A DNA stretch of 64,000 bases from contig NZ_QKMF01000014.1 in NCBI RefSeq assembly GCF_003208435.1, positions 1-64,000 on the forward strand. The letters run 5' to 3'. This DNA is from Pelagimonas varians (GTDB taxonomy: Bacteria; Pseudomonadota; Alphaproteobacteria; Rhodobacterales; Rhodobacteraceae). The notes under the pieces were generated by a model, which was not told the origin of the DNA, searched no databases, and saw only the letters and a program-made list of their open reading frames with translations. Both the position numbers and the translations under genes were made by a program. Positions 9,448 to 21,516 of this stretch are shown here, piece after piece; position 1 is the stretch's first letter, and every line of letters starts with the position of its first letter.

Positions 9448-9464
9448 ATGCTGCATAGCAGCAT
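9448..9464. promoter_or_regulatory. Inverted repeat upstream of the DUF1127/sRNA operon
   Basis: ATGCTGC-ATA-GCAGCAT is a perfect 7+7 inverted repeat about 83 bp before the DUF1127 start, in the divergent mrp/DUF1127 spacer. It could be an operator or just a hairpin. I could not confidently place the promoter; related loci in Rhodobacter use RpoHI/RpoHII, but no clear matching -35/-10 pair is asserted here. Confidence 0.3.
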
Positions 9465-9546
9465 TGCTTTGGCAGCCATTGTGCACCCGCAGCAATTACC
9501 TCATGTTTAGGGCAAGCAACAACACAGCCACCGAGGCAAGACGATC

Positions 9547-9776: not shown

Positions 9777-9851
9777 CGCAAGGGGCTCTCCTCCTCCCTG
9801 TCTCTTGCGACTTCGGCGACGGTATCGCTTCTCCTCCCAGATACCGCCGCC
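9777..9851 (+). ncRNA. CcsR-like sRNA unit 1
   Basis: First hairpin: CGCAAG/CTTGCG stem (9777-9782 with 9804-9809) around CTCTCCTCCTCCCTG. Second: GGCGACGGTATC/GATACCGCCGCC (9815-9826 with 9840-9851, one A-C mismatch) with loop GCTTCTCCTCCCA. This is the most divergent unit and probably oldest. Confidence 0.75.
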
Positions 9852-9885
9852 GCCTAATTCGGGCAAAAGCCCACACAGCATGACG

Positions 9886-9953
9886 GACCCTTTCCTCCTC
9901 CCTGGGTCTCTCATCACAGCGGTGCCTCCTCTCCTCCTCCCTGGGGGCACCGC
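9886..9953 (+). ncRNA. CcsR-like sRNA unit 2
   Basis: Short hairpin GACCC/GGGTC (9886-9890 with 9904-9908) with loop TTTCCTCCTCCCT. Long hairpin 9919-9953, 11 bp including one U-G, loop TCTCCTCCTCCCT. It is preceded by a GGGC-AAAA-GCCC linker hairpin. Confidence 0.75.
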
Positions 9954-9989
9954 AGCAAGTTTCGGGCCAAATGGTCCATCAGAATGACG

Positions 9990-10057
9990 GGCCCTCTCCT
10001 CCTCCCTGGGCCTCTCATGATCGCGGCGGCTCCTCTCCTCCTCCCTGGAGCCGCCGC
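9990..10057 (+). ncRNA. CcsR-like sRNA unit 3
   Basis: Short hairpin GGCCC/GGGCC (9990-10012) and long hairpin GCGGCGGCTCC/GGAGCCGCCGC (10023-10057), both with loop TCTCCTCCTCCCT. It is repeated 211 bp downstream as unit 5 and in changed form as unit 7. Confidence 0.8.
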
Positions 10058-10092
10058 ACCTCATTCGGACCAATAGGTCCAACCGCCTTGCT

Positions 10093-10162
10093 GGGTCCTC
10101 TCCTCCTCCCTGGACCCTTCAAAGCCCGCGGTGATGCCTCTCCTCCTCCCTGGCATCACCGC
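10093..10162 (+). ncRNA. CcsR-like sRNA unit 4
   Basis: Short hairpin GGGTCC/GGACCC (10093-10117) and long hairpin GCGGTGATGCC/GGCATCACCGC (10128-10162), both with loop TCTCCTCCTCCCT. Unit 6 is an identical copy 211 bp downstream. Confidence 0.8.
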
Positions 10163-10200
10163 AACGCTATTTCGGGCCAACCGGCCCACACGTGATGACG

Positions 10201-10268
10201 GGCCCTCTCCTCCTCCCTGGGCCTCTCATGATCGCGGCGGCTCCTCTCCTCCTCCCTGGAGCTGCCGC
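10201..10268 (+). ncRNA. CcsR-like sRNA unit 5 (copy of unit 3)
   Basis: Same as unit 3 except for one base in the right arm of the long stem (GGAGCTGCCGC), which replaces a G-C pair by G-U and so keeps the fold. Confidence 0.8.
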
Positions 10269-10303
10269 ACCTCATTCGGACCAATAGGTCCAACCGCCTT
10301 GCT

Positions 10304-10373
10304 GGGTCCTCTCCTCCTCCCTGGACCCTTCAAAGCCCGCGGTGATGCCTCTCCTCCTCCCTGGCATCACCGC
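10304..10373 (+). ncRNA. CcsR-like sRNA unit 6 (copy of unit 4)
   Basis: Hairpins at 10304-10328 and 10339-10373 are identical to unit 4. The linker after it differs from the unit 4 linker by one base (AACTGG instead of AACCGG). Confidence 0.8.
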
Positions 10374-10411
10374 AACGCTATTTCGGGCCAACTGGCCCAC
10401 ACGTGATGACT

Positions 10412-10479
10412 GGCCCTCTCCTCCTCCCTGGGCCTCTCATGATCGCGGTGGCTCCTCTCCTCCTCCCTGGAGCCACCGC
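10412..10479 (+). ncRNA. CcsR-like sRNA unit 7
   Basis: Short hairpin GGCCC/GGGCC (10412-10434) and long hairpin GCGGTGGCTCC/GGAGCCACCGC (10445-10479). Compared with unit 3, a C-G pair is replaced by T-A on both arms (GGTGG/CCACC), a compensatory change that supports selection on the stem. Confidence 0.8.
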
Positions 10480-10516
10480 AACAAAATTCGGGGCCGCATG
10501 GCTCGTATGATTTGGA

Positions 10517-10596
10517 GTCCCTCTCCTCCTCCCTGGGGCGTCAAAAACTGGAAACGGCGCTGCTCACCTCCCTGAGCAGCGCCGTTTTGTTTTTTG
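10517..10596 (+). ncRNA. CcsR-like sRNA unit 8 with terminator
   Basis: Short hairpin GTCCC/GGGGC (10517-10539) with the standard loop, then the terminal hairpin with a 15-bp stem around loop CCTCCC, followed by a T-rich tail. The transcript of the whole array should end here. Confidence 0.75.
10552..10596 (+). terminator. Rho-independent terminator of the sRNA array
   Basis: A stem of about 15 bp (AAACGGCGCTGCTCA / TGAGCAGCGCCGTTT) with loop CCTCCC is followed by TTTTGTTTTTT. The loop keeps a short version of the array motif, so the terminator doubles as the last sRNA hairpin. Confidence 0.9.
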
Positions 10597-21296: not shown

Positions 21297-21330
21297 AAAA
21301 AAGCCCCGTTCGCGGTCAAGCGAAAGGAGC
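21297..21330 (-). terminator. Attenuator terminator of the metZ riboswitch
   Basis: In transcript sense GCTCCTTTCGC pairs with GCGAACGGGGC (10 of 11 including a G-U) and is followed by six T, immediately between the SAM-II aptamer and the metZ start. This indicates control by transcription termination. Confidence 0.85.
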
Positions 21331-21341
21331 CCTTCGTCTGA

Positions 21342-21397
21342 CCTCTTTAGCGGTGTGTTTAACGTGGCCCGCAATCAGGTAACAAATCGCCACGAGC
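21342..21397 (-). promoter_or_regulatory. SAM-II riboswitch
   Basis: The reverse strand reads CTCGTGGCGATTTG, a variable loop, then GGCCACGTTAAA and CGCTAAAGAGG. These are the conserved blocks of the SAM-II aptamer: the P1 stem CGTGG/CCACG, GATTTG, CACGTTAAA, and the GCTAAA pseudoknot partner. SAM-II controls methionine genes in alphaproteobacteria. Here it lies about 60 bp before metZ. Confidence 0.92.
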
Positions 21398-21516
21398 TGC
21401 CAATTACGCCTGTTGCGCGCGCCGGTCAAGGGCGTCACGCATGTGTAACAAAGCGTTCACGAATCCGTCGCACCCTTGGATTAGGCCCAAACCAACGGAT
21501 ATTGTGGATCGCTGCC

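Follow-up and report, generated by a model that had tools for sequence, protein, structure and literature searches.

A 64-kb stretch of Pelagimonas varians DNA (the window) carries a long, otherwise typical CcsR/cuckoo array. We consider it highly probable that the locus is of CIN1 type, a DUF1127 gene followed by eight CcsR/cuckoo units that act unit by unit as anti-Shine-Dalgarno (anti-SD) RNAs. This judgement covers family membership and unit-wise anti-SD action; control of the array by PhaR lies outside it and is weighed separately below.

Read directly from the sequence, positions 9777–10588 of the forward strand hold 16 hairpins in tandem, short and long stems alternating, 3' of the DUF1127 gene (Table 1). 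The array comprises eight units of two hairpins each and starts about 12 nt 3' of the DUF1127 stop codon, with the first loop motif about 22 nt 3' of that codon. The motif YTCCTCCTCCC ([CT]TCCTCCTCCC) is found in 14 of the 16 hairpins, as is the exact 9-mer CCUCCUCCC. Two hairpins have shortened motifs: the loop of hairpin 2 has CTCCTCCC and that of the terminator hairpin has the six letters given in Table 1. All array loops are 13 nt long with the sole exception of the terminator loop (6 nt). The terminator is itself the long hairpin of unit 8, and is the last anti-SD hairpin of the array; in P. phthalicica the terminator loop bears the full motif. A TTT lies within 45 nt of the last exact-motif hairpin in 35 of 38 family arrays (the exceptions are L081, L084 and L098). 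A preliminary description of this DNA had listed the 16 alternating hairpins with their coordinates and loop counts, and direct reading of the sequence found that account accurate; the DUF1127 gene that it placed ahead of the array is borne out by a Pfam match.

Table 1. Features of the array locus in the P. varians window (forward strand; R1, covariance model of the two-hairpin unit)
Feature	Position	Strand	Details
Promoter box 1, CTGCATAGCAG	9451–9461	+	Putative operator; identical to CTGCNNNGCAG, which passages of PMC12542648 give as the PhaR binding sequence of R. sphaeroides
−35-like element TTGTGC	9479–9484	+	RpoH- or sigma70-like
Second TGC-rich element, GTGCACCCGCAG	9481–9492	+	Between −35 and −10
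−10-like element CATGTT	9502–9507	+	Found in 64 loci, in 55 of them at a distance of 23 bp 3' of TTG
DUF1127 gene, CcaF1-like, 72 aa	9547–9765	+	PF06568, E 5e-11
Unit 1	9777–9852	+	Hairpins 1 (motif 9788) and 2 (motif 9831); three-helix covariance model silent; without preceding mini-hairpin
Unit 2	9849–9954	+	R1 96.6 bits, E 2.6e-18, outside training set; mini-hairpin GGGCAAAAGCCC at 9861–9872 (by eye)
Unit 3	9956–10058	+	R1 105.2 bits, in training set; mini-hairpin 9964–9977, one G-U pair, under the Watson-Crick-only threshold
Unit 4	10059–10163	+	R1 97.8 bits, in training set; mini-hairpin 10067–10080
Unit 5	10164–10269	+	R1 99.6 bits, in training set; mini-hairpin 10174–10187
Unit 6	10270–10374	+	R1 97.8 bits, in training set; mini-hairpin 10278–10291
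Unit 7	10375–10480	+	R1 102.6 bits, in training set; mini-hairpin 10385–10398
Unit 8	10481–10586	+	R1 58.8 bits, E 1.4e-10, outside training set; mini-hairpin 10491–10504, one G-U pair, sub-threshold
Rho-independent terminator	10551 to about 10598	+	16-bp stem, CCTCCC loop (10567), T-rich tail

The loop motif is confined to the array. All 15 copies of CTCCTCCC in the window lie inside it, with none on the other strand, and across the 4.93-Mb genome CTCCTCCTCCC occurs 13 times on the forward strand and never on the reverse, every copy within the array; the reversed control word of CTCCTCCTCCC has two genome-wide occurrences. The 835-nt array RNA folds at −400.8 kcal/mol, compared with −273.7 kcal/mol (sd 6.8) for 20 shuffles (z −18.7). 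We also used an arm-swap test, in which arms are taken at fixed offsets from the motif with no fitting and the 3' arms are exchanged among hairpins. In the window, own-arm pairing reaches 91% of stem positions versus 66% with swapped 3' arms, and none of 200 swaps equalled it. On the motif counts in genome and window, together with the arm-swap test, we reject a chance occurrence of the loop motif. Of 39 arrays tested, 21 exceeded 95% of swaps in fixed-offset pairing; the remaining 18 did not, and many of these have loops of 10 or 16 nt, to which the fixed offset is unsuited. At the gathering score Rfam left the array unmatched, and its only matches in the window were a SAM_alpha riboswitch (21326–21403, reverse strand, 58.7 bits) and a tRNA.

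We built a covariance model (R1) from 33 units, five from the window and the rest from eight other genomes (training loci L071, L072, L080, L084, L086, L087, L095 and L098); these are 33 of 39 listed units, six of 116–120 nt having been left out. In the alignment 93.0% of cells are paired and double-sided changes occur at 17 of 21 pairs, with invariant loop columns between covarying stems. The covariation score is 0.528 versus 0.210 for shuffled alignments (0 of 500), and falls to 0.10–0.17 when the alignment is slid by one column. R1 recovers units 2–8 of the window, two of them outside training.

The same covariation supports RNA helices over a coding reading, in which the repeats would encode a proline-rich repeat protein (PSPPPW-type). 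Open frames of 60–91 aa on the forward strand do cross parts of the array, but among the listed forward frames none spans it, and loop spacings of 39, 65, 40 and 67 nt hold no frame. We reject this reading, whose probability is close to nil, as the frame is not kept.

In Cereibacter johrii, which is closely related to R. sphaeroides, eight exact loops lie 3' of a DUF1127 gene, amounting to four two-loop units, and R1 finds three units at this locus (L137, outside training; E 8.8e-12 to 2e-8). For R. sphaeroides, passages of the published accounts describe CcaF1 as a DUF1127 protein of 71 aa whose gene shares a transcript with four CcsRs (CcsR1–4), made from an RpoHI/RpoHII promoter (PMC10253847; PMC8307010; PMC8625941), at a locus of two-loop units with a terminator at the 3' end (PMC10253847; PMC8307010). 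The preliminary description had proposed about eight CcsR-type units, of two anti-SD hairpins each, behind a DUF1127 gene, to be abandoned if a covariance model did not fit the hairpin pairs. The pairs fit the model, units are found in relatives, and PF06568 confirms the gene, so that on this point the proposal holds.

The linkage to DUF1127 extends through the family. Among 38 fetched family arrays, a motif search placed a DUF1127 gene directly 5' of 36 and found none at L100 and L108; a Pfam scan of the array-linked proteins gave PF06568 in 37 of 37, the window's protein included. Pair-pattern matches in the window's genome are confined to the array. Elsewhere, a similar two-loop unit was seen away from an array at two loci (L109, G001:C7; L110, G099:C25; R1 52.5 and 53.8 bits), and a DUF1127 motif search of the 1.6 kb around each unit found none. 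Separately, the one mismatch-free copy of TTGCTGCATTGCAGCA in the genome (G000:C6:17400; L114, L327) sits 136 nt 5' of another DUF1127 gene, at which motif searches found no anti-SD array.

Between the units we observed a further element, which the preliminary description had overlooked, as it had the conserved promoter and a 211-bp duplication (see below). Spacers running from a long to a short hairpin (loop starts 58–72 nt apart; window plus 38 family arrays) contain a short GC-rich mini-hairpin in 64 of 71 cases, versus 9.3% of shuffled spacers. Four of the six scored spacers of the window pass the threshold; in the other two, one pair of the same 5-bp helix is G-U, which puts them below it because G-U pairs were disallowed in the scoring. 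The seventh mini-hairpin of the window (that of unit 2) is a 4-bp helix. Within the unit alignment this helix (helix 1) is paired in 88.3% of cells, with double-sided change at three of its four pairs. An A/U-rich unpaired stretch precedes the mini-hairpin, and RNase E favours such stretches according to passages of PMC6238624. The boundary mini-hairpin is likely to be a processing signal at the unit borders, and provides a concrete candidate for an RNase E/CcaF1 processing signal.

These boundaries bear on a different reading, in which the uncut 16-loop precursor would serve as one multivalent sponge or ribosome mimic and titrate SD-bearing mRNAs in general. Sixteen loops of the same motif do stand ahead of one strong terminator, and G167 has as many as 26 exact loops in one array; however, covarying boundary hairpins after A/U-rich unpaired bases suggest unit-wise cutting, and RNase E cuts the CcsR precursor of R. 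sphaeroides according to passages of PMC10253847 and PMC8625941. The single 16-loop sponge raised in the preliminary description is disfavoured by the mini-hairpins, which argue for cutting into units, and its role as a generic titrator is disfavoured by the duplex energies that follow. Overall we regard this reading as quite improbable.

Calculated with hairpin geometry ignored, the array loop forms a duplex of −17.5 kcal/mol with a GGGAGGAG leader and of −12.1 kcal/mol with a consensus SD. The 16S tail yields −11.8 and −17.7 kcal/mol, respectively. With the bare hexamers the same calculation gives −8.8 (loop) versus −9.2 kcal/mol (16S) for AGGAGG, and −10.2 versus −9.3 kcal/mol for GGAGGA. 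These modelled energies suggest that the array loops prefer G-rich SDs (GGGAGGAG) over a 16S-type SD, and the loop should compete well at the former and poorly at a consensus SD, a preference that speaks against a generic ribosome mimic.

We turn next to candidate target mRNAs of the units. The pattern GGGAGGAG-N3-11-ATG marks 25 starts in the genome, and its reversed control 5. At 24 of the 25 there is an ORF of 40 aa or more, and 20 were scanned with Pfam (L410, L411, L416, L417 and L418 were left out); the scanned products include six ABC solute-binding proteins (SBPs) and one ABC ATPase. When ten products were compared with NCBIfam, four exceeded the cut-off: PedF cytochrome c-550, XylF, a phosphate/phosphonate-type SBP and RhaD. 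A control pattern, TAAGGAGG-N2-10-ATG, marks 13 starts (3 reversed), whose products, judged by eye, include no SBP and one permease-like protein. Passages of PMC10746234 give ABC transporters as the majority of the predicted NfeR1 target candidates. ABC-transporter mRNAs as targets of the array are a suggestion only, drawn from these predicted starts.

The number of units varies across the family. In a family sample of 295 genomes (one per genus plus one congener), one or more pairs of CCTCCTCCC spaced as in an array occur in 218. Taking the larger strand count, at least 8 pair matches occur in 28 genomes and at least 12 in seven: the window's genome (12), G008 (15), G052 (15), G090 (13), G109 (14), G167 (25) and G273 (13), these being whole-genome counts that in some cases (G008, G041, G240) take in matches beyond the main array. 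The reversed control pattern also has matches, 1 to 4 per genome, in about 41 of these genomes, and lacks independence because CCCTCCTCC can itself occur within C-rich loops. The arrays of two sister Pelagimonas genomes comprise 12 and 14 hairpins, or six and seven units, and L186 has a single unit (by eye); in the genomes looked at, the smallest family arrays have 2 loops and the largest at least 26. Of the 80 named DUF1127 loci, taken as the best of 412, at least three exact loops are chained downstream in 70 (maximum 16) and none in six; of these six, three reach the end of the DNA 4–231 nt past the gene, two have hairpins with shorter loops and one has none. The preliminary description held that this genome had doubled the dose to about eight units. 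The eight units stand, but the doubling amounts to ordinary variation, given the six and seven units of the congeners and the range of the family: the window array belongs to the upper tail of copy number and is ordinary in kind.

The top count in the family sample is that of L073 (G167:C1:334949-336119), with 26 exact loops behind DUF1127; its loop spacings of 42-47-51 recur about every 140 bp, giving three loops per block as opposed to two-loop units. In the wider class, the pair pattern is matched by 14 of 380 genomes from outside the family, at most 2 times each (the class sample of 385 genomes includes five of the family, four of which match), and a class-wide spread of long arrays was rejected on this maximum. 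A phage or plasmid origin of the window array was also rejected, with no match in phage records and one weak 74-bp plasmid match. Viral contigs (IMG/VR; L305, L280, L458, L273 and others) contribute, among the matches listed, at least 27 of 162 kept loci with two or three anti-SD hairpins and a T-run, the loci being chosen by script criteria and some possibly representing one locus twice. Neighbours of L305 match an endonuclease and an endolysin, and those of L273 a DNA methyltransferase, an exonuclease and a helicase (PHROGs); a search of phage records gave no match to the L305 copy. Cuckoo-type sRNAs at these viral-contig loci probably sit on (pro)phages.

Within the window array, a 211-bp block of two units is repeated in tandem (forward strand, 9984–10194 and 10195–10405) with 2 mismatches, although near-identical copies of this kind might be mis-counted in a draft assembly of 56 contigs. 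So recent a duplication, the 6, 7 and 8 units of three congeners and the near-identical blocks repeated in the arrays of G053, G027, G240 and G167 would fit neutral gain and loss of repeat units through unequal crossing-over, with a unit number that has no meaning for dose. Against this we set the invariant loop columns with covarying stems, the paired loops kept in 218 of the 295 family genomes and the DUF1127 gene ahead of 36 of 38 arrays. These observations argue for selection on the units, with which a neutral copy number would be compatible; we hold a neutral number to be unlikely. Across this bacterial family the sRNA system is a copy-number-variable array, and its natural variants can therefore serve to test for an effect of dose.

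The promoter ahead of the DUF1127 gene is conserved. We compared 81 promoters, which are related in sequence (that of the window and those of the 80 named loci, which were the best of 412 relatives). TTGTGC followed by the second TGC element is kept in 79 of the 81, and a C[TC]GC-N3-GC[AGT]G-type box lies 28 or 29 bp 5' of the TTG in 76. The strict form CTGCNNNGCAG occurs in 54 of the 81 and a relaxed form in 78, compared with 7 of 1350 further 250-nt windows taken from these loci and 0.46% of shuffled sequences. The conserved TTG and CATNT-like letters are compatible with RpoH and with sigma70 alike.

In the passages available, PMC12542648 reports CTGCNNNGCAG as the R. sphaeroides PhaR binding sequence and states that S. 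meliloti PhaR represses the sRNA MmgR; a TGC-rich PhaR motif also appears in passages of PMC10888616. At phasin loci of 41 family genomes, CTGCNNNGCAG is present in 15 of 29 analysed upstream regions, versus 1.0% of shuffles; these represent 29 of 30 loci (L356 was dropped, with no suitable frame picked), and some regions may be misplaced, frames and starts having been chosen by a composition rule. Two boxes flank a CTTG −35 in 14 of the 30 phasin loci, with box 1 18–22 bp before the TTG as against 28–29 bp in the array promoters. The phasin promoter of the window's genome has two CTGCNNNGCAG boxes. The same genome has one PF05233 (PhaR-type) gene, and no strict CTGCNNNGCAG box was found in its phaR locus or promoter, which counts against a simple PhaR picture.

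From these promoter letters we reason, as a new prediction, that the array promoter might answer to the PHB-sensing repressor PhaR, in which case the output of the array would follow both stress and the state of carbon storage. We put this forward tentatively, at somewhat less than an even chance; another TGC-binding factor may possibly act at the box instead. PhaR control, if true, would link stress, C1/pyruvate-dehydrogenase control and PHB. Judged from passages and search listings of the literature, the boundary mini-hairpin and the PhaR-like operator both look new.

By analogy with R. sphaeroides, stress would induce the array transcript through an RpoH-type promoter, and RNase E would cut it, the cuts probably falling in the A/U-rich unpaired bases ahead of each mini-hairpin, with the DUF1127 protein modulating the cutting. 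Hfq binding and flhR mRNA as a target are further traits of CcsR RNAs. About eight sRNAs of ~105 nt would result, each with two 13-nt CCUCCUCCC loops that could mask G-rich SDs (GGGAGGAG), including those of ABC-transporter genes, and more units would mean more dose. The likely role of the array is repression of selected mRNAs, with ABC-transporter mRNAs as candidates, by about eight sRNAs released from one precursor. A wider and more speculative proposal, to which we give somewhat less credence than doubt, is that Rhodobacteraceae anti-SD arrays form a post-transcriptional arm of PhaR: TGC operators on both sides of the −35 and a stress-type promoter would release a multi-unit anti-SD burst when storage and stress coincide, shutting down uptake and oxidation genes with G-rich SDs, with copy number as the strength of the brake and the mini-hairpin as the cutting signal.

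Reinkensmeier and Giegerich are said to have described the cuckoo RNA family and its CIN1 loci in 2015. Like the window array, that family has a conserved loop motif, variable stems and a DUF1127 association, according to passages of PMC4504443 and PMC10253847; those passages describe 2–4 hairpins, whereas here 16 stand in tandem with boundary mini-hairpins. The rhizobial sRNAs alpha-r14/NfeR1 and SmelA075/SmelA099 have CCUCCUCCC anti-SD loops in common with the array (passages of PMC3927594 and PMC10746234) and are described there as sRNAs of three or four hairpins, in contrast to a long array behind DUF1127. An alpha-r14/NfeR1 three-hairpin identity was rejected for the window, which has sixteen hairpins in two-hairpin units behind DUF1127. 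With PhaR-controlled phasin promoters the array promoter shares a TGC palindrome 5' of the −35 and a second before the −10, at a different spacing, and the likeness to the PhaR-repressed S. meliloti sRNA MmgR is limited to promoter architecture. A close counterpart in organization is CcsR1–4/ccaF1 of Rhodobacter (Cereibacter) sphaeroides, which in the passages cited above likewise combines a DUF1127 gene, tandem two-hairpin CCUCCUCCC units and a 3' terminator. The window differs in having eight units instead of four and a terminator loop reduced to CCTCCC, and its promoter box 1 matches CTGCNNNGCAG exactly, whereas that of C. johrii (CCGCATGGCAG) is one base off.
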